Shown here one piece after another: positions 25,619-45,186 of a stretch of 50,547 bases of DNA (position 1 is its first letter; every line of letters starts with the position of its first letter). The position numbers and the translations under genes were made by a program. The notes beneath the pieces were generated by a model. The model ran no database searches. It had not been told where the DNA came from and saw only the letters and a list, made by a program, of their open reading frames with translations. Source of the DNA: a virus; IMG/VR virus record IMGVR_UViG_3300030329_004012, positions 1 through 50,547 of that record, one strand, 5' to 3'.

Positions 25619-28600
25619 ATGCCTATAAATCTTGGGTATCAATATCCAAACTTTTCTTCACAACCTAATACGTATACTCCTATAGGTGATAATGCTGCAA
25701 CTGAAGAAGGATTTCAACCTAATTTAAGTGAAAAAAATCTAAAGGATTTAATTAGTTTATACAAAAAAAATCCTACATTAATACCCCCACAACAAGTAGA
25801 CAATATGCAGAAGCATGCTGTATTATATAATGTCCCTTTTCATAAGGGAGATTTTAGTATAATGGGAGCTTTGTCTGAATTTGGTAAAGGTTTCTTATCT
25901 GGTTTTACAACTATGGATATAGGAGACCCTCCTGATAATGAATATGAAGCAATCATTAGGAATATAGGGCATTTAGCAGGGTTTGCTCCAGGTATAGCTG
26001 CTGGACCTTTAAAAGCGTTAAGAGTTCCTGCTTTAGCTCAAGCTGCTATGGCTTTAAATAATAGGTCAGTTCCTATGATGGGTGCTAATTGGTTAACTAA
26101 AAAAGCTAAAAAGATTGTTAAACCTGCTTTAGAAACAGCTATAAAAGGTAAGGGAGATGCTACAAAAACAATCACCAAATTCTTATTAGGTCCTAAAGCA
26201 AAGCATATGGCTGAAGGTGCATTTCATCTTGGAGCTGCTAGTGCTATTAGTTCTTGGACACAAGGAGTTGATGCTATGATGCATTCGGCTTTTGGTGGAG
26301 CTGTTGCTGGTGGTGCATTCAGAGCTATGGGTAATTTTGTAAACACAGGAAGTAAAGATGCTGATAAAATAGTAAGAGGTTTAGCAGGTTCTTTATTTAT
26401 GGGTTTACCTGCTACTGCAAGAGGAGCAACTACTGCTGAGCAAGTATATGAATATTTATTAGGTGCTTATTTTGGTGGTAAAGAAATGCCTTGGTATAAA
26501 GCTAAGGGAGCTAAAACTATGGCATCCTTAGAAAAACAAGCTCAGAAGAATCCAGAACTAGCTATTACTAGAGACCCACGTCTTTTAAAGGAATGGAAAA
26601 GTTTAGAGCCTGAAGTTCAAAAAGAAGTTAAAGAACTAGCAGAAAAAGCATATGGAAATGCTGATGAAAGAAGTGCTGCTGCTCATTTATTAATGAAAGA
26701 AATGGGTATATTAGATAAGAATACTAAACTACCTACTCCACAAGGATTTACCGAATTAAAGAAAGTTGTTGGCGGTCAAGAACTTATTAGATTAACCGAC
26801 CCTAACCAAGTTCTTCATCATGGTATATCTGGAGCATCAAGAGGTTCTGATGCTTATTGGGCTATAGTTGGAAAAAATTATCAAGTTCCATTTGTTCACT
26901 ACTCTTTTAAAGGGCAAAAAACTAGTAGAGGCGCTGGAAAAATAAGAGAATTAAATCAAGCTGAACTTGCAGAAGCTAATATAAAAATTAAAAAGGCAGA
27001 TGAAAGTTTAAATAGATTAAAAGGGAAACAAGCTAAAGGGTTTACACAAAAACTTTTACAAAGAAATTGGTGGCAAGTAAAGACATCTAGAGGAATTTAT
27101 GCTTTAGGTAAAATTATTAAAGGAGGAACTGAACTACAAGGCGGTAGTGGTTGGGCTACTCAAATGGCTATCGATGCAAGAAAAAAACATGTTTATGCTT
27201 GGGACACAGCTTCAAAGAAATGGCATAGATATGATTATAAACTTAAAAAGTTTAGAATGCTTGATAGGACACCTAAACTTGTAAAGCGTTTTGCTGGTAT
27301 AGGTACAAGAAAATTAAGTAACGAAGGTAGAAAAGCAATAGAAGATATATATGCGGTTACTTTTGGAAAGAAAAAACCTTTAGTTACTAGAAAAGCTGAA
27401 GCAATTTCTGAAAAAGATATATCAGTTATACCTGCAGAACGTTTAAAAAGACTAAACGAATTATCAGAACAAGAAGTTATTTTAGATAAAGAGTTAGATA
27501 TTCATATTCAAGATTCTAAGAATCCAGATTTATCTAATTCTCAAAGAATTTCTGCTAAAAAAGAAGCGCAAAAAGTTGCAGCACAACTTAATGAAATTAG
27601 AAAAGAAATGAAAGATGAAGCCTATTCAACAGTAAAGGAAGAAGAATTACAATCTTCTGAAACTCAAGATGGCAATGATATTGGAATGATATCTGGTAGG
27701 GAATTAGAAAAGAAATCTGTTTATTTTATAGATAAATACGCAAAAAAACTTTGGGACGATGCAGGGTACACACCTGTAATGAAACTCACTAAAAAGGCCC
27801 AATTTGCGAGTATTTTACAAGATATAGTAAATAAACCTAAATATTCTAAAAAAGGTTCAAGGGTTAAAGTTGAAGAAATAATTAATGAATTTGAGTCAAC
27901 AATAAAAAAACAAGGCGAAGATATATCTATAAGAGCTGAAGGAAAAAGAAATTTAAGACAATGGTTAACTTTAAAAAGCTTTGGTAAACAAGTTAGATAT
28001 TTAAGAGCAGATGATAGAGGTATATATATTGCCCCCTTAGATAGAGTTATTACAAGGGCTGGTAATAAAAAATTAGTTAATGAACCTACTAAACGATTAG
28101 AGGAAGTATTTTTAGAATTAGGAGGCAAGGAAACAGATAAAGAACCTCCTATTGTTATTTTTGATACTATAACCTCTGGTAAGGATGGCGCTTATAAAGA
28201 CTTAAGCCTATCTAGATATAGACAAATGGAAGAAAGAGATGACTTTACTGGTACTCCTTATTATTCTTATATAAAGAAAGTTTTTAAGAAGATGTTAGGT
28301 AAAGGTTACTATCCTTTTGGAGGTAGAGGAGATGCTGATGCTATAACATTTGTTAAAATGAATCCTATGCTAACTAATAAATCTGAAATGAGATTATTTA
28401 AAAGAGCTGTTGAAAAATCTTTAGGACAAAAAGGGATAAAACAAATAAAAGATGGAATGGCTTTATTTAAAAAGACATATGGATTAAGTAATAAAGTTCA
28501 GGATATGTATTATTCTAACCTTCTTTATGATATTCAAATGAATGGATTTAGACCTGACTTACAAGTTGGTACTAGATTAGAAAAAGCAAAGATATGGAAT

Positions 28601-31600
28601 GATACAGTTTCTAAATTTTTTAGAGACAATAAAACGTTTATTCCTAATGCAACTGCTTTAAACAAAAGAAATCAAATATGGTTTACTCCTGGATGGAAAG
28701 CAGACCGTGAATTTGTTAAAGACTTTATGAAAACTAGGTCAGGTAAAAAAGGTTTTATAAATGATTTGATAACAAAATTAGACGAATTAAATATACCTGT
28801 TATTTATAAGACTAAAATTACTTCAGCCCTTCAGCCTGATGTATATACCGCAGCAAGAACAAACCGTAAAACTCGTGAAATATATATAGATAAAGATTTA
28901 ATGAAAAAGAAATTCAAGGAAAAAGCTTGGACAAAACCTAGGATGAAAGGTGTTGACCCTTTACCTGAAGATGCTTTTAAAACTTATAAGCAATGGGAAA
29001 ACTTTGTAATCGCTCATGAAAGAGCTCATTTTACTAAAGAAAATCAAGCTTTACCTAAAGGTCCTGAAAGAGAAAATCATGCTAATAAAGTTGCTTTAGA
29101 TGTTGTTCAAGGTAAACAAGATTCATTTAAATATATTATAGTTAAAGATGTTGATAAAGAATTAGGGAGAAGAATAAAGCTAACTGATAAAAATAGTGAC
29201 GACCCTACAAGTGTAGATGGTATGATTATAGTTAGAGATGATATTGTTGATGCTATAAATGCAGATGCTGGACAACCACCTTCTGGGCAAAATAAATCAT
29301 TTATTGTTAGTCCTGATAGTAATAATGGAGCATTGCTTGGTAAATATATGATGCATTCTGCTGGCCGAGAAGCAACTAGAGCTATGCAAAAGAAGGGATT
29401 ACATTTTATAATGCAAGAATCAGCAGTTAAACAAGCTGGTGATAGAAAAATAGGTTCATATAGTTATGATGGAAAGTCTTTAAAATATAGCTCTCCTGAG
29501 TATTCCCTTCCTATAGAGCATATAAAATATAACTACTCAGTTAAACAAGATGCTCATATGTTAGACCCTAAACGTATTCCTAAGCAGCTATTTATGGCTA
29601 TGGGTAAGAATGCTTTCTCAGAGTTCTCTAATGATTTAATAAATGATTTCTTTACTGAAACAGTTTATAAAAGATTTAGGGGAGAAGATGCTTATAATAA
29701 TATGTTAGACAACTATATAAATAATCCTAGGAAAGAAAAGTTAAATGAATTACTAGACAATATTGACAAAGTAGGAATAGATAATTTGTTACATGCTATT
29801 AAACATGGTCATAATGATTTTACTGATTTGGCTTATGCTAAGCTAATGAAATTTAATAGAGAAGCTTTACGTGAAATGGTAGCTTCTGGAGAAATGTCTG
29901 CTGAAAGAATGCAAGAAGTAGAAAATAATTTACTTGAATTTAATACTGCAACAGATAGATTAATTAAAGAATCTGATATATGGTCTACAAAAGAGAAGGC
30001 TGCAGGTCGTGATGGAGATATTACTCCTATATTTTTACATAAATATGTCAGACCTTTTAGAGTTCAGGTTATTAGAAATTATATAATGGAAAATTTATCA
30101 AAACCTAAGATAAAAAATTCAGCTGTAGCTCGTATGAGAGGTTATGATAAGTTTTTTCAATCTAAAAAAGAATTTAAAGAACTTGAAACAAGAGATGATA
30201 TATTCTTTTTAGATGAGTCTTATAGAGATTTAAAACTAGATACTCATTTAGGAAAGGAATTTAATACTTTAGGTAAATTATGGGAAGCATATGTTAGTAA
30301 GGGTAAAAAATGGGTTCATAGAGCTGATGCTAAAGAAATATTAAGAGCTGCTACTGTTCGTGTTCCTATGGATTCTACTAGTGGTGCTCAAGTAATGCAT
30401 TTTGGAGGATTTACTGGAAGAAAAGGTCATGGTATAATGATGCATTCAAGAGCTATGAAAGCTGAAGGTGGTGCTGACCTTGATGGAGATGAAGCGTTTA
30501 TCTTCTTTGGTGGTAGAAAAGGCGGAAAAGGTGATGGATTTAAAAAGTCTTGGAAAGATGCATTTAGAGCTAATAAAGAAGAGTTTTATGAAGGTGGAGA
30601 ATTAGAAACTATCTCACGATTTTCTCCTTCATTATTAAAAGCAAATCCAGATAAAGTGTATTTGTTTGGAGATAATTTAGCAAAAGTTGGAAGAGGACCT
30701 GGGGCTGGTCAAGCTATTATAAGAGATGAGCCTAATGCTTATGGTATTCCGACTAAAAAAAGTCCACGAGTATTTATGACTGACAAAGAATATGATGCTA
30801 ATATAAAAGCTATAGATAAAGCTTTTAATTCTGTGCCTAAGGATAAAACTGTAGTTCTTCCAAAAGATGGGCTTGGTACTGGTAGAGCTCAATTAAAAAC
30901 TAAAGCGCCTAAAACTTGGGCTTATTTACAAAAGAAACTGAATGAACTAAAATCTAGCCGAGGTCAAGCTGAATATACTTACGATAATAAAAATGAAAAA
31001 GTAAGAAAAGAATTAACGCTTCAAGATAGTATATCAGAAACTGGTATAGACCCTAAAGTAAGAGATAGTGCTGCTTGGAAATACATGCCTGGTTGGAGAG
31101 TTATGATTTCAGAAAGAGCTAGAGATGGAAGGAATCAATTGGGTTCAGCTTCTAATAATGTTCAATTATTAAAAGCATTTCATAATTCTTTATTAGAAAA
31201 AGGGCAAGATAGATACTTTATAGGTAAAGGGAAAAATAAAAAAGAGATTATTGTAACACCTAAAAAGGATATAACCAAAGCAAGAAAGCTAGCCTCTTCT
31301 ATGATAGCTTTTGCATCTGACCCTTTAGATGAAGCAGGATTAAGAAACTATAAAAATTGGTATGTTAAATTATATGATTCCTATTTTAACGTAACTAAAG
31401 ATGGTAAAAAAGTTAGATTAACTGAAAAAGATTTTAATTCTTTATCTTATAATGGTATGTATAATCAGTTAAGAAAAATGAACCAAGGTATGTTCAGTAG
31501 AAATTGGTCTGCTGATAGAAATTTCAATATGCATGAAATTAATATGATGACAGCAGGTGTAACAGATAAAACTACATTTGGTAATGAGTCTTTTAGAAAT

Positions 31601-34600
31601 ACAATGTTACCTAAATTAGCTAGTATCGCTAATAAGATAGACTATTCTGATTCGGTTTATCGTAGAGCTCACCTTACATCATTAGAAAATATGTATAAAG
31701 AACATACTGAATTAATTAAAAAATATCCTGATTTGGTTAAATTATTAGGAAGAAGTACTATAGATGTTCCATTAAATAACTACGTAAAAAATGTTAAAGA
31801 ATTTTATTTATACAATGACAATGCTATTGATATTGTTTCAAAGAATTATACAACTTTTGTTAAAGCATTAAAGGGGACTCATTTTTCTCATAAGCTTAAA
31901 GCAGGTGAACTTAAAGATAATACTTGGAAGAATATTCAAAAAAGAAAATTTGTTCTAGAGAAATTAAGAGACCTTTCAGAAGACTTTTTAGTAAATGATA
32001 TAACAGATATGGTTACAGTTAAACTATTAGCTAAAGATGCTGGTAAAGTTTCTAAAAATGAATTTAAAGAGATACATAGATTCACAGATAAATTAAAGAA
32101 ACAAAGTTATTTAATGGCTAAAAATAGACGTAATTTTATGGACTCCTTTAATCGATTAGATAAAATGGACCCTGAGCATAGAGAATTTTTTAGAGAAATG
32201 TATAATGCTCATGAGAAACTTTATGGGAAAGAAGAAACAAAGAAAGTTTTTCCTGGGGGAAGAAAACAATTTGAAACTCCTGTTGAAGATATATCTGCAT
32301 TAAAAGACCAGCTTGAAATAGATGCTGAACTTAAAACCTTTAAACAAAAGTTAAGTCCTGAAGGGAAAAGACTTACAGATATACTTATGTTAGGTTCTTT
32401 AAGAAGAGGAAAGCTTAGTGAAATAAATAAGCTAGATAAAGAATGGGGTAAGAAACTTAGAAAAGACCCTTTATATGAAGATTTATTGCATAGTTTAAAA
32501 ATGAAAGGTTCAAAGACTGGTGTTTCTAAACTAGGACTATCTTCTCAGGAAGTTGATGGTAAAGTTTTAAGAGAATTTTTTGGAGAGTTTTCTAAAGTTA
32601 TGCGTAAATCTTGGGATAAACCAACTGAACTTGATGCTGAAGTAAAGGATGCGAATAAACGTAAAGAAGGAACTGTTAATGAAGAGTTTATTGATAAGAA
32701 AGTAGAAGGAACTGAAGTTGATGAAATATATTCAGGTTTTGAAGGTTTAGAAAAAGCTGATTTATCTGTATTAACTCCTGAAAAAAGGCAAATAATTACA
32801 GAACTTGCAGAGAATCTAAAGTTTTATAATAATAAAATGGGGAAAGACTTAAATGCTTTAACTAGAGGAATGTTCGAAAAAGATTTAAATGCTATGAACT
32901 TAGCTGATTTTGCTGATATGAATGCTTACTTTAAAGAAGTTAGAGGTGGAACTATATGGCAAAAGTTATTTAATGAGAAAACTCCTGATATGAGAAAAAG
33001 ATATTGGTGGCAATTTCCAGCTACTGTTGGAAGAGAAATGATGAAGTATGAGATAATGTTCTTAAAGAGTAAAGGTATATTTAAAACACAAAAAGGATTA
33101 GTGCCTGAAAAAGGTGGTGTAATAATGAAGCCTACCAATGTAATATCAGCAGCTCAAAAAATTCTTGGAAGAATGTCAGAACAAGGTGTTCAAGAAGGTG
33201 AAAGACTTGTTGGTGACTTAAGAAAAAAACTTGGATTTTTAGAAGGACTATCAGATGGTGAAGCATTAAGAAGACTTGCTGTAGCTAAAGCTGAAACAGC
33301 TGAAATAGAAAGAATATTCAATAGTGAACATATACCAAATGAACTAAAAGGTATTCAAGCTGATGAGTATAGATTAAGATACAAGGAAGAATTAAAAAAA
33401 TCTGATTATATAAATAAAAAAGATAAGAAGTATATCGTAACTAATACTAAAGGTGAAAGAGAAACTTTAAAGGGAAGTGATATAGTTAAAAGAGTTGAAG
33501 AAGTCTATGATGCTCATTTTAAGGAAATGTTTAAAACAATTGAAGGTGAATCAGGTGTTCTTGATAAATATACCTTAGGTTATTATGATAAAAATATAAA
33601 AGAAAAGCCTATAATTGACCATAAAGCTTTTATAAAGGATGTGTTAAAAGACTTTAATGCAGGTAAAGGTATCTCTCTTAAATATGGTCTAACTCCATTA
33701 AGACATATTTCTAGGTCTATGATGATTGAACAAGCTAAAATCTTAGGCAATCAAAAGCTTTTAACTAAGCTATTAAAATTTGAAATACCTACTGTTCGTA
33801 GAATTAGAGAAGGTTATTATCCTCATATGTTCTTTAGCAAATCTAAAGCTATGGATGCTTTGAAAAGGGCTCATGACTATATAAAGAATTTACCTGAAAA
33901 TGTTATGTCAAAAGAAGATAAGATTGTTCAAATACAAAAGCTACTTACTAAACACAAGACTCTTACTGGTGATTGGATGGAAGGGATAGAAAATTGGGAT
34001 GCTTTTGATAAAGCTGTCCAAAATATAAAAGAGAAAAAAAGTACTGACCCTATTAGTGCATTTGATAATGCTAATCAAATGACAGGTTCTATGCATCATA
34101 GAATGTCTCATGTTGGAGGATGGTCTATTGATGCGGCTGCTGCTGAATCATATACTCGTAATCAAATAAACACTTACTATAAACAATTCTCTCAAATTAT
34201 GTCTCGTGATTTATTAAATAAATTTACTGAAAAGGCTATGTCTAAGCCTCATGAATGGCATAAAATTAAAGATTATGGCGATAATACATCTTTATTAACC
34301 AGATGGCAAAATTGGTTAAAACTTTATATATCTGAATCTATGGGAAGTCCTAGTATTATACCTGACTTTATATTAAATGACCCTAAAATGAAAGTAAAAG
34401 GTACTCCTTATGCTTGGTGGGCTGATAATAAAGTTAAAGAAAAAGCTAATAAAATAGCTAAAAAGCTAGGATTAAGAGGTAAAAATTTACTTACTGTTAA
34501 AGAAGACCTTGAAAGAATTGACTATAATGATATACGACATTGGTCTAATCTTGAAGCTAAATTCGAATTAATGTCTTTACTTGCTCATCCAAAGTCTGCT

Positions 34601-35704
34601 GTAGCTAATATATTTGGTGGTTCTTTACATACTGTACAATCAACGGGTTTAGAATATTTAAGAAAAGCAAGAAGTATAAGTGATTTACAAAAAATAAATC
34701 CTAATTGGGAATCTTTAACTGATGTTGATAAGTTTGTTGTAAAGCATGGTGTATTACCAGAATTCATTATTGCTGAACTAGGTTTGTCTAGAGAAGCTCA
34801 AGCTACTAATGTAAAAGCATTTATTAAAGATTTATCTGCTAAAATAACTAAAACTGGTGAAGTTGATAAGGAAACTTTAAGAGATATAAATCGTAAACAT
34901 AAAGTTAGTGAAAGTATAATGAATAAAGCAGCTAAATTTATGTCTGTTCCTGAAAGAGCTCTTCGTAGAGATGCGTTTATGGCTCATTATATTAAAGCTT
35001 GGGAAAGATTTGGTGGAGCTATAAAAAATCCAGACCATCCATTCTTAATTGAAATGGCTAAGAAAGGTGTTAAAGCTACACAGTTCTTATATAGTGCTCC
35101 ATATAGACCAGCTTTTGCCAGAACAGCTCTTGGTAAGGTGATGACTCGTTTCCAATTGTGGTCTTGGAATGCTGTAAGGTTTAGAAATGATGTTATAAGA
35201 GAAGCTAAAGTAAGGGGATATAGAAGAGGTACTGCTGAATTTGAGAGGTTTAAGAGAACAATGCAAACAGACTTGTTTGTTTTAGCTCTTGCTAATGCAT
35301 TTGCTTATTCTTTATTTGATAGTGCTTTACCAGCTCCTTACAACTGGTTAAAGGATACTTCTGAATGGATATTCGGTGATGAAAAAGAGAGAAACAAAGC
35401 CTTTTTTGGAACTTGGCCTAGTGCTATAGCTCCCTTACAAATTGTTACTCCTCCTATAATGAGACTTCCTGTTGCGGGATTAAGAGCATTTTTAGATAAT
35501 GACTATGAAAAATTAGCTCATTATCATGTGTATACTATGTTACCATTTGGAAGAATGGTAAGAGATGTATCTCCACTTGCTAAAGGTAATTTGATAGAAA
35601 ACCCTAGTAGAATACTAGAGAAATCAATGGGATTTCCGTTAGGGGATTTACAAGGTATGGCAAAGAAAATAAAAGAGGGTGATGCCTATCATCCTAGATA
35701 TTAA
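25619..35704 (+). CDS. Giant virion protein (3361 aa), RNA-polymerase-like barrels
   Basis: A fifth of the genome. Residues 80-270 hold Gly/Ala-rich, potentially membrane-active stretches (GFAPGIAAGPLKALRVPALA). HERAH at 1133-1137 is a zincin motif. D1200-G...K1242...S-A-V-K1271 resembles the first (beta-like) double-psi barrel of RNA polymerase. R1581-V-P...A-D1620-L-D1622-G-D1624 closely parallels the 'R-P...NADFDGD' metal loop of the second (beta'-like) barrel. Residues about 1680-1790 (VYLFGDNL, GPGAGQAIIRDEPNAYGIPT, GLGTGRAQL) are a separate phage domain. The C-terminal 300 residues are hydrophobic-basic. It follows the ejection genes, so packaging and injection with the DNA, as for crAss-like virion polymerases, is inferred. 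A giant 'polyvalent' protein is the alternative. Confidence 0.6.
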   Translation: MPINLGYQYPNFSSQPNTYTPIGDNAATEEGFQPNLSEKNLKDLISLYKKNPTLIPPQQVDNMQKHAVLYNVPFHKGDFSIMGALSEFGKGFLSGFTTMDIGDPPDNEYEAIIRNIGHLAGFAPGIAAGPLKALRVPALAQAAMALNNRSVPMMGANWLTKKAKKIVKPALETAIKGKGDATKTITKFLLGPKAKHMAEGAFHLGAASAISSWTQGVDAMMHSAFGGAVAGGAFRAMGNFVNTGSKDADKIVRGLAGSLFMGLPATARGATTAEQVYEYLLGAYFGGKEMPWYKAKGAKTMASLEKQAQKNPELAITRDPRLLKEWKSLEPEVQKEVKELAEKAYGNADERSAAAHLLMKEMGILDKNTKLPTPQGFTELKKVVGGQELIRLTDPNQVLHHGISGASRGSDAYWAIVGKNYQVPFVHYSFKGQKTSRGAGKIRELNQAELAEANIKIKKADESLNRLKGKQAKGFTQKLLQRNWWQVKTSRGIYALGKIIKGGTELQGGSGWATQMAIDARKKHVYAWDTASKKWHRYDYKLKKFRMLDRTPKLVKRFAGIGTRKLSNEGRKAIEDIYAVTFGKKKPLVTRKAEAISEKDISVIPAERLKRLNELSEQEVILDKELDIHIQDSKNPDLSNSQRISAKKEAQKVAAQLNEIRKEMKDEAYSTVKEEELQSSETQDGNDIGMISGRELEKKSVYFIDKYAKKLWDDAGYTPVMKLTKKAQFASILQDIVNKPKYSKKGSRVKVEEIINEFESTIKKQGEDISIRAEGKRNLRQWLTLKSFGKQVRYLRADDRGIYIAPLDRVITRAGNKKLVNEPTKRLEEVFLELGGKETDKEPPIVIFDTITSGKDGAYKDLSLSRYRQMEERDDFTGTPYYSYIKKVFKKMLGKGYYPFGGRGDADAITFVKMNPMLTNKSEMRLFKRAVEKSLGQKGIKQIKDGMALFKKTYGLSNKVQDMYYSNLLYDIQMNGFRPDLQVGTRLEKAKIWNDTVSKFFRDNKTFIPNATALNKRNQIWFTPGWKADREFVKDFMKTRSGKKGFINDLITKLDELNIPVIYKTKITSALQPDVYTAARTNRKTREIYIDKDLMKKKFKEKAWTKPRMKGVDPLPEDAFKTYKQWENFVIAHERAHFTKENQALPKGPERENHANKVALDVVQGKQDSFKYIIVKDVDKELGRRIKLTDKNSDDPTSVDGMIIVRDDIVDAINADAGQPPSGQNKSFIVSPDSNNGALLGKYMMHSAGREATRAMQKKGLHFIMQESAVKQAGDRKIGSYSYDGKSLKYSSPEYSLPIEHIKYNYSVKQDAHMLDPKRIPKQLFMAMGKNAFSEFSNDLINDFFTETVYKRFRGEDAYNNMLDNYINNPRKEKLNELLDNIDKVGIDNLLHAIKHGHNDFTDLAYAKLMKFNREALREMVASGEMSAERMQEVENNLLEFNTATDRLIKESDIWSTKEKAAGRDGDITPIFLHKYVRPFRVQVIRNYIMENLSKPKIKNSAVARMRGYDKFFQSKKEFKELETRDDIFFLDESYRDLKLDTHLGKEFNTLGKLWEAYVSKGKKWVHRADAKEILRAATVRVPMDSTSGAQVMHFGGFTGRKGHGIMMHSRAMKAEGGADLDGDEAFIFFGGRKGGKGDGFKKSWKDAFRANKEEFYEGGELETISRFSPSLLKANPDKVYLFGDNLAKVGRGPGAGQAIIRDEPNAYGIPTKKSPRVFMTDKEYDANIKAIDKAFNSVPKDKTVVLPKDGLGTGRAQLKTKAPKTWAYLQKKLNELKSSRGQAEYTYDNKNEKVRKELTLQDSISETGIDPKVRDSAAWKYMPGWRVMISERARDGRNQLGSASNNVQLLKAFHNSLLEKGQDRYFIGKGKNKKEIIVTPKKDITKARKLASSMIAFASDPLDEAGLRNYKNWYVKLYDSYFNVTKDGKKVRLTEKDFNSLSYNGMYNQLRKMNQGMFSRNWSADRNFNMHEINMMTAGVTDKTTFGNESFRNTMLPKLASIANKIDYSDSVYRRAHLTSLENMYKEHTELIKKYPDLVKLLGRSTIDVPLNNYVKNVKEFYLYNDNAIDIVSKNYTTFVKALKGTHFSHKLKAGELKDNTWKNIQKRKFVLEKLRDLSEDFLVNDITDMVTVKLLAKDAGKVSKNEFKEIHRFTDKLKKQSYLMAKNRRNFMDSFNRLDKMDPEHREFFREMYNAHEKLYGKEETKKVFPGGRKQFETPVEDISALKDQLEIDAELKTFKQKLSPEGKRLTDILMLGSLRRGKLSEINKLDKEWGKKLRKDPLYEDLLHSLKMKGSKTGVSKLGLSSQEVDGKVLREFFGEFSKVMRKSWDKPTELDAEVKDANKRKEGTVNEEFIDKKVEGTEVDEIYSGFEGLEKADLSVLTPEKRQIITELAENLKFYNNKMGKDLNALTRGMFEKDLNAMNLADFADMNAYFKEVRGGTIWQKLFNEKTPDMRKRYWWQFPATVGREMMKYEIMFLKSKGIFKTQKGLVPEKGGVIMKPTNVISAAQKILGRMSEQGVQEGERLVGDLRKKLGFLEGLSDGEALRRLAVAKAETAEIERIFNSEHIPNELKGIQADEYRLRYKEELKKSDYINKKDKKYIVTNTKGERETLKGSDIVKRVEEVYDAHFKEMFKTIEGESGVLDKYTLGYYDKNIKEKPIIDHKAFIKDVLKDFNAGKGISLKYGLTPLRHISRSMMIEQAKILGNQKLLTKLLKFEIPTVRRIREGYYPHMFFSKSKAMDALKRAHDYIKNLPENVMSKEDKIVQIQKLLTKHKTLTGDWMEGIENWDAFDKAVQNIKEKKSTDPISAFDNANQMTGSMHHRMSHVGGWSIDAAAAESYTRNQINTYYKQFSQIMSRDLLNKFTEKAMSKPHEWHKIKDYGDNTSLLTRWQNWLKLYISESMGSPSIIPDFILNDPKMKVKGTPYAWWADNKVKEKANKIAKKLGLRGKNLLTVKEDLERIDYNDIRHWSNLEAKFELMSLLAHPKSAVANIFGGSLHTVQSTGLEYLRKARSISDLQKINPNWESLTDVDKFVVKHGVLPEFIIAELGLSREAQATNVKAFIKDLSAKITKTGEVDKETLRDINRKHKVSESIMNKAAKFMSVPERALRRDAFMAHYIKAWERFGGAIKNPDHPFLIEMAKKGVKATQFLYSAPYRPAFARTALGKVMTRFQLWSWNAVRFRNDVIREAKVRGYRRGTAEFERFKRTMQTDLFVLALANAFAYSLFDSALPAPYNWLKDTSEWIFGDEKERNKAFFGTWPSAIAPLQIVTPPIMRLPVAGLRAFLDNDYEKLAHYHVYTMLPFGRMVRDVSPLAKGNLIENPSRILEKSMGFPLGDLQGMAKKIKEGDAYHPRY

Positions 35705-38445: not shown

Positions 38446-38551
38446 TACTTTTTTCCTTTCCCAAATAAATAGCAAACTGAAATTTCCATATCTTTATTAT
38501 CATAGATACGGTATCTATAAGCATACCTTTATTTGAATTAAATGAAATCAT
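38387..38551 (-). CDS. Hypothetical 54-residue protein overlapping the HTH gene
   Basis: ATG 38551 overlaps the primase-helicase stop by four bases (ATGA) and has AGGAG seven bases upstream, so it should be translated. Its 3' third overlaps the helix-turn-helix gene in another frame. Residues 12-30 are mildly hydrophobic (IDTVSMIIKIWKFQFAIYL), perhaps a membrane segment; the C-terminus is Lys-rich. Confidence 0.5.
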   Translation of the reverse strand: MISFNSNKGMLIDTVSMIIKIWKFQFAIYLGKEKSNAEKTKQKLKESKSYDAFA

Positions 38552-40323
38552 ACTTTTCTCCTTAATCTAAAGCTTGGCTGCCATTCTAAATCAGTTTTAA
38601 ATAATTCTCCGTCAGTATTCTTTAATACTTCAAGTGTTTTATCTGATGAATTAGCTTGGCCATTTAAGCCTATCACTTTACGAGATGCGTTTTCTATTGC
38701 TCCAGAACCTTTACCAGCATATAAGTCAAGAACTTCGTTTCTAGAATATTCTCTTGAAACTTGGGATACCTGAATTATAATCAAATCATTATTTACAGCC
38801 ATACTTGATAGTGAATGTGATATATATTTAATTTGTTCATACTCTCCTCTAACGTGAGGTGGAGTTTCTACTAAATCAATATAATCAACTACTACTAATG
38901 CTGGTCTTAATTCTTTGACTTTTGCTTGTATTTGTTCTAGATTAGGAGGTATTGTTTGAATGGCCATATGATTTAACTTATCTTTATGTTCAGTATAAAC
39001 TTGTTTAGGATTATCGTTTATCTGTTCTTTAGTTAAGCCTGATACTATTTGCATGTTTCTTCTATGCATATACCAAGCTGATAACTCTAAAGATAAATAC
39101 AATGTAGGTATTTGCCAATCTGGATTTACATCATCATTAAGAAAATCAACTCCTAATGCTATGCACTGAGCTAGTGTAGTTTTACTTGAACCTGTAGGTC
39201 CAAATATAGTTACTAACTCTCCTGGATATATTTCTGTATCCGATTCACTTATACCTAACATTTCAGCTAAAGGTAAAGAACGTCCATCAAAATCTGCTGA
39301 CATTCTTTCTTCTAACTTTTCTTGTAAATCATCTGAACTCATAACGTCTATAAGGTAGTCTTTTCTTTTGAAATGTATGCATCTAGTTTTACAATGCTTT
39401 AACATTATCTCATCTTGACAACCAAATCTATACCCTCTATTGTAAACATACTCAACTTTTTCGACCACACTATTTTCATTTAAACTATTATTGTTCCAAT
39501 GTAAAATAGCAGTTTTAGCATATTCACTAGGTATACCATGTCTGAAGAAATGACTAGCTATTCTAAGTAGCGTTTGGTTTCTAGAGCCCTCTTGGGGCCC
39601 ATTTGACAACATTTCTTGTACACACGGTATAACGTCCTTTGGTTCTACTACTTTTCGTATTTGGGTCATTCTAGGGGCTCTAGTGAGTATTTTGCTTTCT
39701 AGCTCTCCATTTCCTACTAGTTCACTATAAGCATATTCTATCCTTGGTGTTTTAGCTAGTTCTTTAATAGTTTCTGAATCTTTATTTAAGATTTCAGCTA
39801 CTGTTAAAGGTATTTTATGAAGGTTTGTTTTCTTGTTTATTGTATGTTGAATACGATAAATACCTGTCCTCATAAATATACTACTGTCTATTATATCTCC
39901 AAAGATATTCTTAAGAGTCCCTTTTACCAAATAATGGATGTTATCACTATTTGGAAAGTTAAATACACTATTAGGTAAAGCTAAATGATAACCGCTGCCA
40001 CTAAAATATGGCTGAATAGAATAGTTTATATCTACTCCTAGTTCATCTATTTGGTTTATTACATTTCTAGCTTTATTTAATGTGTATTCATCACTATTGT
40101 CAGCTTTGTCTATATCTAATAAAATCCAGTCAATTGCTCTTTCGCCAAAGTAATTCTTTAGCCCACCGTTAGACTCGGCATAGTCTACTGCTTTTTTAGT
40201 ATATAAATAAACTGACCTAAATAAAGGTGTATCGTGATTTATATATTTAACTAAATCTTTCTTTGCAATAAGTCGCCCTCTATTACGAGGGCTACCTACT
40301 GCTATTTCAATATAGTCAAACAC
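38548..40323 (-). CDS. AEP primase-DnaB-like helicase fusion
   Basis: A 591-residue bifunctional replication protein, GTG start sharing one base with the previous stop. N-terminal archaeo-eukaryotic primase module: L68-L-D70-I-D72 metal pair, then S108-G-S-G-Y-H113 and the downstream NLHKIPL. A Cys/His cluster (CQDEIMLKHCKTRCIHFKRK) sits near residue 300. The C-terminal RecA-fold helicase of the DnaB/SF4 type has Walker A G375-P-T-G-S-S-K-T and Walker B VVVD480Y, then QVSREYSR and GSGAIENASR. It would unwind the fork and prime it; because no polymerase gene is seen, host polymerase is probably recruited. Confidence 0.9.
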   Translation of the reverse strand: MFDYIEIAVGSPRNRGRLIAKKDLVKYINHDTPLFRSVYLYTKKAVDYAESNGGLKNYFGERAIDWILLDIDKADNSDEYTLNKARNVINQIDELGVDINYSIQPYFSGSGYHLALPNSVFNFPNSDNIHYLVKGTLKNIFGDIIDSSIFMRTGIYRIQHTINKKTNLHKIPLTVAEILNKDSETIKELAKTPRIEYAYSELVGNGELESKILTRAPRMTQIRKVVEPKDVIPCVQEMLSNGPQEGSRNQTLLRIASHFFRHGIPSEYAKTAILHWNNNSLNENSVVEKVEYVYNRGYRFGCQDEIMLKHCKTRCIHFKRKDYLIDVMSSDDLQEKLEERMSADFDGRSLPLAEMLGISESDTEIYPGELVTIFGPTGSSKTTLAQCIALGVDFLNDDVNPDWQIPTLYLSLELSAWYMHRRNMQIVSGLTKEQINDNPKQVYTEHKDKLNHMAIQTIPPNLEQIQAKVKELRPALVVVDYIDLVETPPHVRGEYEQIKYISHSLSSMAVNNDLIIIQVSQVSREYSRNEVLDLYAGKGSGAIENASRKVIGLNGQANSSDKTLEVLKNTDGELFKTDLEWQPSFRLRRKV

Positions 40324-40931: not shown

Positions 40932-41103
40932 CTTCACCTCTTCTTTCTATTCTTATTGTTATTAGGTTATTTTCTACATCGGGATTTAATACAATCTTAT
41001 CTCCAATTTTCCAACCCATTATATCATTCCATACTTCAGGTGGTAAATTAGTGCAATGAGGATTGCTTCTGAGTGTTGATTTAAAACCTTTTATCGTACT
41101 CAT
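40918..41103 (-). CDS. AbrB/MazE-like DNA-binding protein, 61 aa
   Basis: The segment LPPEVWNDIMGWKIGDKIVL followed by NPDVENNLITIRIER has the AbrB-like swapped-hairpin pattern ('lP..v......GDki.l......i.i...'). The N-terminus carries basic residues. It overlaps both neighbours (ATGA with the ATPase gene; 14 bases with the SSB candidate). It may bind DNA to regulate the early operon or assist recombination; no partner toxin is visible. Confidence 0.65.
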   Translation of the reverse strand: MSTIKGFKSTLRSNPHCTNLPPEVWNDIMGWKIGDKIVLNPDVENNLITIRIERRGEDGDI

Positions 41104-41768
41104 TTCTTACCCTCCTTTTTATATATTTTATCCCATTCAAAAGGTATACATTTACCTCGTAAGTGTTCACATCTACTACCTGCTTCTACAGATTCGTCTG
41201 CTTTAAATGAAATCATTAGTTTATCGTCTTCTCTTAAGACATAACCGATAGCATCACAATCTGACATAATCAGATTCTTCAGCTTACCAGTTATATCTAA
41301 AGATTCAGGTTCAACTAGGGCTTTGCCATCTATGACTGCCCTAGCAACCTTTCTATGTCCAACGATTATTAAATGGTCACAAACATCTCTAAAAGCATTG
41401 ATAGTATTCATTACTTTTTCACGAGCTAACGCATAACCTTTACCAAAAGTTAAATCTGCTATTGATGCAACTTCATACTCTGCACAAACAGCTTTTTCAG
41501 CCCATTCTACTACTTTGTCAATAGTATCTAAAGCTATATATTTAAACTCATGGCCTTCCATAACATCTTTAAGAGTTTGGATTAACTCTTCTCTGTTATT
41601 TACTTCTTGAACGTATGCTTCTAGCATTTGCGTTCCTTTTTCAGTATCTACAATCAAACAGTCCTCTAACTGAGAGAGCATAGTAGTTTTACCTACTTTG
41701 GGTGCTCCATACAGAAGAAGTACCTTCGGATTCAGAGACACTGGTTTGCGTTTCTGTTTCTTTATCAC
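41100..41768 (-). CDS. Sak4-type RecA-fold recombination ATPase
   Basis: A 222-residue single-domain ATPase. Walker A is G21-A-P-K-V-G-K-T28; IVDTEKG and the Walker B YIALDTIDKV follow; then IVGHRKVARAVIDG and LIMSDCDAIGYVLRED. This order is that of phage 'nucleotide-binding protein'/Sak4, a minimal RecA/Rad51-like ssDNA annealing or strand-exchange protein. The start lies 80 bases inside the 3' end of the E1-like gene, so the two proteins are tightly co-expressed. It probably works with the SSB candidate and the Cas4-like nuclease. Confidence 0.85.
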   Translation of the reverse strand: MIKKQKRKPVSLNPKVLLLYGAPKVGKTTMLSQLEDCLIVDTEKGTQMLEAYVQEVNNREELIQTLKDVMEGHEFKYIALDTIDKVVEWAEKAVCAEYEVASIADLTFGKGYALAREKVMNTINAFRDVCDHLIIVGHRKVARAVIDGKALVEPESLDITGKLKNLIMSDCDAIGYVLREDDKLMISFKADESVEAGSRCEHLRGKCIPFEWDKIYKKEGKK

Positions 41769-42435
41769 TTGTTTTCTCCATGTTTATTGGTAATACTAGC
41801 CCTTCTTCTTTCGACATATAAGGGGCTAACGACTTCCAAATATACGAATGATAAGACCTTTTATGCAAGACATTAAATGCTTGTGACAACATTATGCCAG
41901 CTACTATATTAGCTGTAAATATTGTATGCTTTGCAGTACAAGGTTCATCCTCTATTTCAGAGCTAGGTTTCCAAGTATTTATGTAGTTATCGTTTAAATA
42001 GTCACAAGTTATGACTTCCATTGACAATGCTCCCATACGTCCATCAACAAGCACTTTTCTATTTCTTTGTCTTGTCCATGTTCTCCATATAATCTTACGT
42101 ATTTCCATGTTATCTGGAGCCATCATCACACAAGGTGATAACGGGTCAAGTGGTCCCCATTGTTTGTGTTCTATTATTTCTGTTGGGCAACCAAAGTATT
42201 TTACTAATTCTTTAGCTGCCTTTGTTTTAGATAAACCTAAAAAACTTTCTGGGTACATAGTTGTACTTAGATTATGTTCTTCAAGTTCATCAAAATCCCA
42301 TAAATGTATCTTTTTAAAGCCCATTATAGAGGCTGCTAGTATTAGGCAAGACCCAACACCACCAGCTCCTATAATAGTAACTTCATTAAGATTCTTTTGC
42401 GAGATTATATCTTTATTGCGTAAGAATCTATTCAT
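41689..42435 (-). CDS. ThiF/E1-like ubiquitin-activating enzyme homologue
   Basis: A 248-residue adenylating enzyme expected to use ATP to activate the C-terminus of the ubiquitin-like protein. Rossmann motif G23-A-G-G-V-G28-S; D47-F-D49-ELEEHN55-L contacts ATP and Mg2+; K72 after GLSK; D108-N in APDN; D131-G. C166 (EPCTAKHTIFTANIVAG) occupies the place of the thioester cysteine ahead of the 'aNivAGim..Q' helix. The usual R-Q after NL is replaced by Ser-Thr. The acidic Ser/Thr/Glu-rich tail (residues 220-248) is encoded in the overlap with the ATPase gene. Start ATG 42435 follows the JAB stop without a gap and has GGGAGG upstream. Confidence 0.9.
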   Translation of the reverse strand: MNRFLRNKDIISQKNLNEVTIIGAGGVGSCLILAASIMGFKKIHLWDFDELEEHNLSTTMYPESFLGLSKTKAAKELVKYFGCPTEIIEHKQWGPLDPLSPCVMMAPDNMEIRKIIWRTWTRQRNRKVLVDGRMGALSMEVITCDYLNDNYINTWKPSSEIEDEPCTAKHTIFTANIVAGIMLSQAFNVLHKRSYHSYIWKSLAPYMSKEEGLVLPINMEKTSDKETETQTSVSESEGTSSVWSTQSR

Positions 42436-43320
42436 TTATAACCATCCTCCCTCTTCTTTGTTAAAACCTTTTTCAATACAATAATTATCTAGAGCTGTTT
42501 CAGTATCTATAGCTCTTTGTTCTATTAATTCATAATTAGGACTACCTACAGTAACAGACATCCAATTTTCTTCTGCTTTTTTATAGGCTTTTAATAACTT
42601 TTGATACTTTTTATCTTTGATATTCTCATCGTAATCATAGATTTGACCTGTATGTTTTTGTTCTATAACTTTATGTGCATTATTATGAAACAAACCTATT
42701 TGTCTTGGGTCTTGTCTAAAATATCCCATATGCATACCAAAACCACTGTATGTTTTAACTTTCTTTGCCTCTTTCTCTTGCTTTTTAAGGCTTTCTATAC
42801 AATCTTTAAATAAAGATGTTGGTTTATAGTCAGGTACATCTATTATAACTTTAGCATCTTTTGCTTCTGTCATACTTATTTTACCAAATTGGTCTTCCCA
42901 GCTTACAGCAAATGCAAAAGGGCTACCTGTTTCTTGTAAAGCTACAACAAGTGAAGGATAACCTACTTGATTAGCACATTCTTTTAAATGTTCTTTATCA
43001 GTTCCACTAAAGAATGCACCTCCACTTAATGAATGGTGACTATGAATTAAACCTCGATAACATTCCCTTAATTCAGGAAATTTCTTATAAGCTTTATCTA
43101 GAAATTTAATTTCATCTTCTCCACTAAATTCAGTAGCTGCTGTACTGCCTAAGTCAAGTGGGAAAAATGCTTTTAATTCCCATTTAGTAGTCCAGTTTCT
43201 TTTATTTGTTTCTACTTTTTTATAAAATGCTACTCCACTCCATTCTGTATTAGGATATAATCCTAGCAAGTGTTGTATTTGTTTATAAATTAAGCGTGTC
43301 AATTTTAGTTGTATTTTCAT
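42436..43320 (-). CDS. JAMM/MPN (JAB) deubiquitinase-like metalloprotease
   Basis: A 294-residue protein whose N-terminal 150 residues form a JAB domain with the complete zinc motif: E26 (TEWSGVAFY), H93-S-H95, then S105-G-T-D108 in GGAFFSGTD. The HxH to SxxD spacing is two residues longer than the canonical seven. JAMM enzymes remove or process ubiquitin-like tags. Residues 165-294 are a charged helical extension (KKQEKEAKKVKTYSGFG) of unknown role. AAGGAGG lies ten bases before ATG 43320, which sits 38 bases inside the E2-like gene; the next gene begins immediately after its stop. Confidence 0.9.
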   Translation of the reverse strand: MKIQLKLTRLIYKQIQHLLGLYPNTEWSGVAFYKKVETNKRNWTTKWELKAFFPLDLGSTAATEFSGEDEIKFLDKAYKKFPELRECYRGLIHSHHSLSGGAFFSGTDKEHLKECANQVGYPSLVVALQETGSPFAFAVSWEDQFGKISMTEAKDAKVIIDVPDYKPTSLFKDCIESLKKQEKEAKKVKTYSGFGMHMGYFRQDPRQIGLFHNNAHKVIEQKHTGQIYDYDENIKDKKYQKLLKAYKKAEENWMSVTVGSPNYELIEQRAIDTETALDNYCIEKGFNKEEGGWL

Positions 43321-44812
43321 TTTCTGTGAGCCTCCTTAACTCTTCTTTGTAATGTTCTATTTTCTTATCTTTAAGTATTTTGTTTAATATAGGTATTAGA
43401 TTTCGATATTCTAGTTCAATCTCTTTAATCCTATTTTTCTTATTACATTCTTTATCATTATCAGTAGGTAAGTTTGCAGCTTTAACTAATAAATCATTAA
43501 TTGATATAGGTTCAGAATGTTCTGGTTTTAGTAATTCAAACCAAAGTTTTTGCATATCTTCAAACCTTATCATACCAGAATGTTCATAATCACATTTATC
43601 TCTTATAGATACTAGTTCTTTAGTTAGATTATCTAAAAGAAGTGTTTTTGTTATAATATCATCTTCAAGACTAATATCATCATGTAAATAATATAAATAA
43701 TAGTCAGCACCAATAATTTCTGGATGTTCTTCATATTTAAATGTTTTATGTTTATAAAATTTTAAACTATCTTTAAACTTCATCATTTCTGAAAGAAGAT
43801 TTTTATCATCATCAGAAAAAGTAGGATTATTTTGTTCTTGTCTTTCTAGTCCTATATGATATAATAACTCATGTAATTCTCTAAGTAATACTATTGAATC
43901 ATGGTTATGTTCAAAAGTAAAGTTATTTCTTAGATAAGATTCTATGTTATAAGATAACATATTGCTTCTATAATGAGAGCTACTATTAGGAAAATGTCTA
44001 TTTCCTTCTATATCTCTCCACTGAGTTGATTCAAACATTATTCTAGATAAAGGTTCTGTATCATATGCTTTACATCTAGCTGATGGAAATATTTTTCTTT
44101 TATTAGTAACAAAATCATTTCCAGATTCAATGTCAAATGTAGTTAAGCACGATTCTTTATAATCAAATGTATTAGTTATCATACCTAAACTTAAACTATT
44201 TAATAAATGAGGTTCATCCCATTCAAGATAACTATTAAATTCAAATCTTTCAGGTGTATGATAAGGACTTCGATAATTCCATTTATCTAAGTATAATTTA
44301 AAATTCCACATAAATCCTGTTATATTATAATTAGTTATACTAGCTCTTATTGGAGTTTCGAAACTTGAAAGACAAGGTCTTCCATTCTGAATATGAGGAT
44401 GTTGTGCTGGATAGAACATATCTGCAAATTCTCCAGCAAGCATTATTCTTGATTTAGTTAATACAAGAAAATCCCATTTATTTAGTCCAGAATGAAATAG
44501 TTTTATATAGTAGTCTCCAAATCTAAATATTTTCCTTCTTTTAATTCTTATATCTTTAAATCTAAAGAATAATACATTACTACCTTTTTCTATAGTTTTT
44601 CTAGCATATATTTCATCTTCTTCGCAAGTATACGCATCAATAATTTCAGCATTATCATCTTTTAATATTCTATTTGATAATTCTTCTATATTTTCAGGAG
44701 GAGCTGGATAATTCTCTGCAGCATTTTCTCCTATGTTTTGTTTTATTATTTGTATTGATTCTCTATCACTTTCAAAGATAGTTAATAATACATTTTTTAA
44801 TCTTTCTAACAT
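43283..44812 (-). CDS. E2-like ubiquitin-conjugating protein with long extension
   Basis: Start ATG 44812 (GAGGTAAC upstream), 509 residues. Residues about 75-190 have a UBC-type layout: strands (VLFFRFKDIRIKRRKIF, DYYIKLFHSG, WDFLVLTKSRIM), then the active-site motif H138-P-H-I-Q-N-G-R-P-C147-L-S-S-F. The downstream helix ends LYLDKWNYRSPY, the 'fL..yN..sPY' seen in prokaryotic E2-like proteins. C147 would carry the thioester. Residues 200-509 are a largely helical extension with no recognised domain, making this far longer than a normal 150-residue E2; it may replace an E3 or bind the target. Gene order and overlaps tie it to JAB and E1. Confidence 0.8.
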   Translation of the reverse strand: MLERLKNVLLTIFESDRESIQIIKQNIGENAAENYPAPPENIEELSNRILKDDNAEIIDAYTCEEDEIYARKTIEKGSNVLFFRFKDIRIKRRKIFRFGDYYIKLFHSGLNKWDFLVLTKSRIMLAGEFADMFYPAQHPHIQNGRPCLSSFETPIRASITNYNITGFMWNFKLYLDKWNYRSPYHTPERFEFNSYLEWDEPHLLNSLSLGMITNTFDYKESCLTTFDIESGNDFVTNKRKIFPSARCKAYDTEPLSRIMFESTQWRDIEGNRHFPNSSSHYRSNMLSYNIESYLRNNFTFEHNHDSIVLLRELHELLYHIGLERQEQNNPTFSDDDKNLLSEMMKFKDSLKFYKHKTFKYEEHPEIIGADYYLYYLHDDISLEDDIITKTLLLDNLTKELVSIRDKCDYEHSGMIRFEDMQKLWFELLKPEHSEPISINDLLVKAANLPTDNDKECNKKNRIKEIELEYRNLIPILNKILKDKKIEHYKEELRRLTENENTTKIDTLNL

Positions 44813-44833
44813 TGTTACCTCGTTTCTTTGTTT

Positions 44834-44928
44834 ATTAAAAGAGAGCCTCACATATTCCTTTGCCTAACCCAGGCTTAGCGAAGGATTTTTACAAGGACTT
44901 ATAGGACCAGTTATTGGCTCTCTTTTAA
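44834..44928 (-). promoter_or_regulatory. Structured RNA element between Ubl and E2 genes
   Basis: A perfect 13-base inverted repeat, ttaaaagagagcc (44834-44846) and ggctctcttttaa (44916-44928), encloses 69 bases. Inside lies a second stem: tcctttg-c-ctaa pairs with ttag-cgaagga around loop cccaggc (about 44856-44885). It starts 21 bases after the Ubl stop and ends just before the E2 ribosome site. It could adjust the Ubl:E2 expression ratio by processing or attenuation. There is no T-run typical of a terminator on this strand. Confidence 0.65.
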
Positions 44929-44949
44929 TTGTTAACTTATCTGTTATTA

Positions 44950-45186
44950 CTATCCTGATTTATTACTTTTATTAGCAATTTGAATTGAATCGCCTTCTTC
45001 TATAGTTGTAGAAGGTTCCTCTGATTTAGTATTACCATTCTTATCTTTGAATACTATAACAACATTATTCATTTCAACCATTTCCTTTTGTAATAAATCT
45101 CCTAGATTTGTGTAATCATTTACATTTAAGGTGGCTAGTGCGCCTCCTCTTTTGTATGAATCTAGGAAAAACGTAGCTACACTCAT
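44950..45186 (-). CDS. Ubiquitin-like beta-grasp protein, 78 aa
   Basis: Residues fit a beta-grasp: strand VATFFLDSY, strand ALATLNVNDY, helix NLGDLLQKEMVE, strand NNVVIVFKDKNG, then EEGDSIQIAN, the GD-containing last strand typical of ThiS/MoaD/ubiquitin-like proteins. The chain ends N-K-S-N-K-S-G, leaving a C-terminal glycine exposed without processing. It is the first gene of the Ubl-E2-JAB-E1 series, with AAAGGAG before ATG 45186. Size equals ubiquitin (76). A ThiS-like sulphur carrier is the alternative, but no thiamine or cofactor genes are present and an E2-like gene is. Confidence 0.75.
   Translation of the reverse strand: MSVATFFLDSYKRGGALATLNVNDYTNLGDLLQKEMVEMNNVVIVFKDKNGNTKSEEPSTTIEEGDSIQIANKSNKSG

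Follow-up and report, generated by a model that had tools for sequence, protein, structure and literature searches.

The best-known ubiquitin-like pathways of bacteria are defences against phages, and the question raised by the locus described here is what such a set of genes might do when a phage itself carries it. The locus lies in a complete IMG/VR virus record, IMGVR_UViG_3300030329_004012, whose 50,547 bases are referred to below as the window and encode a terminase large subunit, a portal and a major head protein; the virus is a tailed phage. The initial annotation had described four consecutive leftward genes at 41689-45186 that encode, in this order, a ubiquitin-like protein (Ubl), an E2-like conjugating protein, a JAB protease and an E1-like activating enzyme of ThiF type. 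This description is borne out, with reading frames at the claimed places on the - strand and conservation in relatives beyond chance, and the further view that the set is phage-encoded and belongs to a replication-side operon is well supported and extends far beyond the window. We conclude that the cassette is probably a phage-owned, reversible ubiquitin-like conjugation pathway.

The same set is conserved in two distant groups of phages. Among 50,697 phage records, the 15 kb around the cassette had no near match by megablast and the window E2 had no tblastn match even at E 1; a related-locus search with this E2 also returned nothing. Because the E2 searches gave no match, relatives were collected through E1, and phages without E1 thus lie outside the sample. 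With the window E1, 28 IMG/VR loci were recovered, of which 15 (14 distinct sets) hold all four genes with the E2, JAB and E1 signatures intact, while the other 13 end on the upstream side within the available stretch. Two of the latter (L012 and L028) begin at or within E1, and four (L011, L016, L023 and L026) have no E2 piece detectable by similarity and show an open frame running from the contig end into the JAB start. By tblastn, the E1 found 41 of the 50,697 phage records and the JAB of crAss-like phages found 74, the query's own records included. The E1 of crAss-like phages recovered 45 IMG/VR loci, 41 of them (38 distinct sets) with the four genes in the same order and 4 cut. The E1 and JAB are directly homologous between window-type and crAss-type loci, and because only these two proteins match directly, the E2 and Ubl were equated between the groups by position and motif.

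The proposal of a beta-grasp fold for the 78-residue Ubl is well supported by structure prediction. An AlphaFold2 model built from 13 sequences has a mean predicted local distance difference test (pLDDT) score of 90.8, and Foldseek matched it to SUMO, ubiquitin and ThiS-like proteins (best E 1.8e-3 at probability 1.0, for SUMO). A second structural comparison placed TtuB first (Z 8.2, root-mean-square deviation 2.5 over 64 residues), followed by others with values that, being below 8, can reflect common arrangements, among them MoaD 7.4, TT1568 7.3, ThiS and SAMP2 6.5, and ubiquitin about 6.3. Its rows nevertheless consist for the most part of known beta-grasp proteins: ubiquitin, ThiS/MoaD-type and Ras-binding-domain proteins. 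All 13 window-type sequences have NKSG at the C-terminus, and 12 have the preceding Ser. The Ubl ends at this Gly in the window and in one other distinct sequence; the other 11 carry one further residue (Asn or Lys), which would need trimming. In the window Ubl, Gly78 is the residue that would be activated.

For the E2-like protein we prefer the start at ATG 44812, residue 14 of the listed open reading frame, which has GAGGT upstream. The listed frame begins at a GTG 13 residues ahead of this ATG, and the cysteine given as C147 in the initial annotation is therefore C160 here. The window carries the motif HPHIQNGRPCL, with H151, H153 and the catalytic candidate C160, and among 20 aligned window-type rows, some incomplete, H151, P152, H153 and G157 are each kept in 18 of 18 and C160 in 19 of 19. 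The pattern HPHIxxGxxC closely resembles the UBC signature HPN...G..C. In the model of the N-terminal domain, helices, a beta-meander, the HPHI...C160 loop and further helices follow one another in UBC order; pLDDT stays at 86-96 for the greater part of residues 11-190 but drops to 64 at 101-110 and to 73-81 at 131-160, the stretch that includes the active site. A profile built from three yeast E2s places its HPN..C on HPHI..C160 (p 0.0076; 0.018 when the full-length alignment is used), as compared with 0.66, 0.40 and 0.45 for control profiles of JAB, E1 and Ubl. The element order, the motif and this weak profile match suggest a UBC-like fold. In a viral library there were three matches at E <= 0.001 (best 4.7e-10), none of them to a named protein. 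For the C-terminal domain, the prediction is a helical structure at low confidence.

The JAMM residues named in the initial annotation (E26, H93xH95 and S105xxD108) are present and, together with S94, conserved in 27 of 27 sequences; S28 and G29 are kept too, and W27 in 26. This set, like the 29 sequences used for E1, includes four crAss and Flavobacterium phage loci (L029-L032), and E-W-S-G...H-S-H...S-x-x-D is recognisable in the JABs of both phage groups. The E1 has the ATP-site residues GxGGxG, DxD, N, K and DN...R. Invariant positions in 21 chosen E1s are R3, G23, G25, G26, D47, D49, N55, K70, D108-N109-M110, R113, D131, R133, C166 and T171, with G28 nearly so. C166, which we take to be the equivalent of the known catalytic E1 cysteine in the loop after the DGR motif, is conserved in 29 of 29 sequences of the window-type set and 45 of 45 of the crAss set, three sequences being common to both.

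Profile searches had been proposed as a check in the initial annotation. Pfam ThiF (PF00899) matched the E1 at E 1.1e-14 and 54.6 bits, above the cut-off of 28.1, and the best NCBIfam match was also a ThiF model, at 9.3e-13 and far below its cut-off. Against the PDB, a profile of the 21 E1s found MccB (7.7e-13), PaaA (4.7e-12), and UBA5 and E1s (about 1e-12 to 1e-11), in alignments that cover the nucleotide-binding part and end before C166. Prok-JAB scored E 0.024 and 15 bits in the window and 19.9 bits in a crAss member, below the cut-off of 25; the sequence is divergent. The JAB profile found no significant JAMM protein in the PDB, a 26S proteasome Rpn11-like chain standing at E 0.62 behind unrelated matches, and Pfam, PHROGs, NCBIfam and PADLOC gave nothing meaningful for the Ubl or the E2 of the window.

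In the crAss-like group, an unnamed gene precedes the JAB in five Steigviridae (cr128_1, DAC15, cr111_1, crAss001 and cr106_1) as well as in Flavobacterium phage FpV4, and overlaps it in all of these except in the DAC15 annotation. Upstream of this gene stands a protein that reaches ...KKI(K/R)SG, or a similar motif, within its first ~100 residues and then continues in an extension; from position, length and motif, we take the part up to SG as the presumed Ubl. In crAss001 the four genes are gp79 and gp78, both annotated "hypothetical", gp77 (annotated with a metalloprotease domain) and gp76 (ThiF), lying behind primase gp80 and helicase gp85; the IMG/VR locus L071 equals this stretch at every sampled point. 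A primase relative is present in 40 of the 41 uncut crAss-type loci, the 41st (L048) being cut there, and no helicase was found within the stretches of these loci. The aligned Ser-Gly of the Ubl precursor is kept as Ser in 40 of 41 and Gly in 41 of 41, and is followed by an extension of mostly 100-217 residues. The presumed E2 has the motif HSH...C, with a longer gap than in the window type (H 39/40, S and H 41/41, C 42/42), intact in 38 of 41 loci. The corresponding JAB columns read E 39/39, H 39/40, S and H 40/40, and S and D 42/42, with the motif again intact in 38 of 41. Pfam did not name the extension in 23 crAss-type Ubls. One of these precursors matches the C-terminal domain of Ribosomal_L12 (3.1e-10).

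Several of the exceptions are insertions at catalytic or boundary sites. A group I intron (Rfam RF00028, 66-70 bits) separates the first His of HSH from the Ser in the JAB genes of L046 and L047, and another splits the HSH of the L058 E2 gene at the equivalent place; such introns prefer conserved sites of important genes. The JAB of L054 is split just behind HSHNTM by an insert between 3550 and 4742 that holds a LAGLIDADG-like frame, recognised by eye, and has no Rfam match at gathering score. In cr106_1 the presumed Ubl gene ends in ...KKIKSGKF, a gene for an HNH endonuclease comes next, and the extension is a separate gene. This split indicates a domain boundary at Ser-Gly and a Ubl able to exist without its extension.

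A number of observations weigh against a conjugation pathway of this kind. The Asn usual in HPN is His in the window-type E2, and a PDB search with the window-type E2 profile returned no E2. Foldseek gave no PDB match at E <= 0.001 for the full-length E2 model, two Cap2 chains standing at ranks 11 and 15 of the same list with insignificant values (E 1.7-1.8), and a second fold comparison contained no UBC rows because the C-terminal helices of the full-length model filled them, an absence that does not speak against the fold. On the crAss side, the UBC profile misses the E2 site (p 0.39), the E2 profile has no PDB match at E <= 10, and the Ubl profile finds no Ubl in the PDB, matching designed helical proteins only, on the extension. 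Profile comparison between the two groups was not significant for E2 (E 0.15), where HPHI..C falls on HSHV..C, nor for Ubl (E 0.07). Individual loci also deviate: the L072 Ubl has HG instead of SG, and Phe takes the place of the first E2-motif His in L051 and L052, which have the same coordinates and scores. No E3, proteasome or substrate was identified. Finally, the initial annotation had considered all catalytic residues intact, which holds for the conserved E2, JAB and E1 signatures but not for the Arg of the E1 motif NLNRQ, replaced by Thr or Gly in 46 of 49 and 28 of 29 sequences (overlapping sets, counted where the motif was readable; 4 could not be read). Most window-type E1s read NLSTT here and the crAss type mostly N-[LM]-[SA]-GQ, whereas MccB (NLTRQ) and UBA5 (NMNRL) have the Arg. 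This residue helps adenylation and is usual, not defining, in the E1 superfamily; its absence lowers our confidence in adenylation by the E1, and either its part is played by a different residue or the reaction is not the usual one.

We hypothesize that the pathway would operate as follows. Where the Ubl precursor has a tail, the JAB would trim it back to ...Ser-Gly; this tail is a single residue for most marine relatives, absent from the window and a long extension in crAss-like phages. The E1 would adenylate the terminal Gly and hold the Ubl as a thioester on C166, from which it would move to C160 of the E2. The E2 would then transfer it to a target protein, its variable C-terminal domain perhaps standing in for an E3 and picking the target, and the JAB could remove the Ubl from that target again. 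The gene neighbourhood suggests that the target belongs to phage DNA replication or to the host machinery that the phage engages, as we infer from the replication-side location. We give roughly even chances to the wider proposal that a complete Ubl-conjugation pathway, essentially confined to viruses and using a precursor from which the phage's own JAMM protease removes the extension, is core to the replication genes of two or more distant tailed-phage groups, crAss-like phages of the human gut included, and tags proteins of the phage replication machine or its host partners during infection.

Known systems offer partial parallels. Bil is made up of four separate genes with the same functional set and order as the cassette, namely BilA (Ubl), BilB (E2), BilC (JAB) and BilD (E1), and in PADLOC the E1 distantly matched the E1-E2 model (3.2e-7) and the BilD model (5.5e-5). 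The published account describes for Bil a two-domain Ubl, a two-domain E1 and a CEHH motif in BilB (PMC11354881). The cassette differs in its single-domain Ubl of 78 residues, its one-domain E1 of 248 residues and its place in a phage replication-side operon, and has no His at +8 or +13 from C160, the CEHH spacing, but an HxH before the Cys. The likeness to Bil drawn earlier holds for gene order, then, and not for these features, on which we rejected identity with Bil. Type II cyclic-oligonucleotide-based antiphage signalling systems (CBASS; Cap2/Cap3) and 6A-MBL also unite E1, E2 and JAB activities in one operon, with distant E1 similarity. Cap2 is characterised as a fused E2-E1 that conjugates the cGAS-like enzyme itself and not a Ubl (PMC10097602). 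The E2 and E1 of the cassette are separate genes, and 10 neighbouring proteins compared with PADLOC gave no CD-NTase and only weak matches of ATPase, helicase, HNH and PD-(D/E)XK proteins; type II CBASS was rejected on these two points.

A similar four-part set is found in PRTRC, which we take to be the same as operon type 6d. Iyer 2006 gives this type as Ubl, JAB, E1, E2 and an alpha-helical protein, its E2 being without the classical E2 His and having one after the Cys (PMC1779556). In the cassette E2, two nearly invariant His precede the Cys. PRTRC_ThiF matched the E1 of the crAss type weakly (9.9e-7, below cut-off), no PRTRC model is among the matches listed for the four proteins, and the PRTRC_B model matched nothing in the window even at E <= 10, on which ground PRTRC was rejected. 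Phages lambda and T1 carry a Ubl (TAPI) and a JAB (TAPK) among their tail-assembly genes, with no E1 or E2 mentioned in the passages on them (PMC1779556). Both they and the window virus encode a Ubl with a JAB; the cassette has an E1 and an E2 besides. With ThiS-ThiF, TtuB and SAMP-UbaA the cassette shares a beta-grasp carrier and a single-domain E1, but those systems have sulphur-transfer partners instead of an E2.

This last comparison bears on a first rival explanation, in which the Ubl is thiocarboxylated by the E1 like ThiS, MoaD or TtuB and feeds tRNA, cofactor or DNA thiolation, the JAB merely trimming it. TtuB, MoaD and ThiS are the nearest structures to the Ubl, the E1 is a single domain of ThiF size and its best NCBIfam match is a ThiF model. 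We regard a pure sulphur carrier as rather improbable, and favour conjugation because every uncut locus has an E2-like gene, with the Cys in each readable motif, and because no sulphur-transfer gene was named among the neighbours examined, a search confined to those neighbours; the Ubl also ends in SG, not GG. TtuB-like carriers can tag proteins too, and the two roles are not exclusive. That the E1 might instead adenylate a peptide to yield a small molecule is suggested by MccB and PaaA, which are among the best solved-structure matches of its profile. These matches are limited, however, to the nucleotide-binding part found throughout the superfamily, and what would serve as substrate is not a peptide but a protein folded as a beta-grasp, encoded beside an E2-like gene and a JAB, so that such peptide modification is highly improbable.

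The Bil-like gene order and the distant PADLOC similarities of the E1 would also fit a phage-borne defence directed at rival phages or plasmids. This seems quite unlikely to us: the set is not accessory but present in every uncut locus of both groups (collected via E1, with phages lacking the set uncounted), it lies with overlapping reading frames inside the replication-side gene block, its neighbours give only weak PADLOC matches without a CD-NTase, and it is nearly absent from bacterial genomes at the sensitivity of two E1 patterns. A minor but real possibility is counter-defence, either through real conjugates on host proteins or through competition with host Cap2 or Bil machinery. The median identity to the window over the full protein is 20% for E2, the least conserved of the genes compared, as against 47% for Ubl, 53% for JAB and 73% for E1, and within the E2 it is 17% in the C-terminal half and 37% for residues 14-195, as expected if the protein faces the host; a full four-step pathway nonetheless exceeds the needs of a decoy.

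Outside phages, two degenerate E1 patterns, which can miss distant forms, found one relative in 84,980 bacterial and archaeal genomes. It lies in a Clostridium metagenome-assembled genome, on a 12 kb contig (L080) that also has the Ubl, E2 and JAB and, by eye, a primase and further crAss-like genes; given these genes, the contig is probably a misbinned phage. No bacterial Prok-E2_B gene was found in 299 genomes, nor in the controls of the same search, so that this negative carries no information. Plasmids gave three weak ThiF matches, and the two inspected had no E2 or JAB annotated nearby. Among the matches listed in searches of the open-access literature, there is no paper on a Ubl pathway in crAss-like or other phages, save TAPI-TAPK of lambda and T1, and the words thiamine, metalloprotease and ubiquitin do not occur in the main text of the Crassvirales papers that were term-searched.

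Thus a phage itself owns an apparently whole Ubl pathway beside its replication genes, and so does crAss001, which is cultured on a named Bacteroides strain and makes the idea testable. If the proposed conjugation is real, common gut phages gain an unexpected protein-tagging step, crAss001 gp79-gp76 are explained, and simple four-part systems become available for biochemistry. The fast evolution of the half of the E2 that may pick the target would give a handle on what is tagged. Positions of the features are collected in Table 1.

Table 1. Positions of the cassette genes, their context and the insertions in related loci. Entries without a locus name refer to the window.
Feature	Position	Strand	Details
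Ubl gene	44950..45186	-	78 residues, single beta-grasp domain (predicted), end ...NKSNKSG; Shine-Dalgarno-like TAAAGGAGACTTAA-ATG
Ubl-E2 intergenic stem-loop (predicted)	44834..44929	-	arms ATTAAAAGAGAGCC 44929-44916 and GGCTCTCTTTTAAT 44847-44834
E2-like gene	43283..44812	-	509 residues from ATG 44812; listed open reading frame 43283-44851, 522 residues from GTG
JAB/JAMM metalloprotease gene	42436..43320	-	294 residues; E26, H93, H95, S105, D108
ThiF/E1-like adenylating enzyme gene	41689..42435	-	248 residues; GAGGVGS 23-29, candidate thioester C166
AAA_24/Sak4-like ATPase (context)	41100..41768	-	Pfam AAA_24 3.3e-24, PHROG 124 4.2e-32; first downstream replication-recombination gene
Primase-helicase, PriCT_1 + DnaB_C (context)	38548..40323	-	Pfam DnaB_C 7.4e-14, PHROG 19 6.5e-30
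HNH gene between presumed Ubl and extension	L035:1770-3063; cr106_1 L083:1956-3159		right behind SGKF
Group I introns	L046:4178-4390; L047:3582-3841; L058:2222-2453		in JAB (L046, L047) and E2 (L058)

Leftward of the E1 follow the Sak4-like ATPase, a 61-residue open reading frame, a 204-residue protein and the primase-helicase. All 28 window-type loci have the ATPase gene, and median identities to the window are 91% for the ATPase, 86% for the primase-helicase and 65% for the 204-residue protein. Within the cassette the JAB gene overlaps the E2 gene by 38 bases, and the E1 and ATPase genes overlap out of frame by 80 bases (41689-41768). A similar E1/ATPase overlap occurs in nearly all relatives and may be the cause of conserved Ser/Arg at the E1 C-terminus.

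The gap between Ubl and E2 has a minimum free energy of -30.6 kcal/mol in the window (z -3.0 against mononucleotide shuffles), and neither this gap nor that of L009 has an Rfam match. A closing stem, often AAAAGAGAG...CTCTCTTTT, is predicted in all 12 gaps folded, those of the window and of 11 relatives (L003, L005, L006, L009, L010, L013, L015, L020, L021, L025 and L027), with strongly differing loops and z from -1.2 to -6.5, four being weaker than -2. The stem-loop may act as an attenuator or processing site, which could set the Ubl above the enzyme levels. The rightward gene block of the window contains two very long open reading frames, at 13330-20739 (2469 residues) and 25619-35704 (3361 residues).

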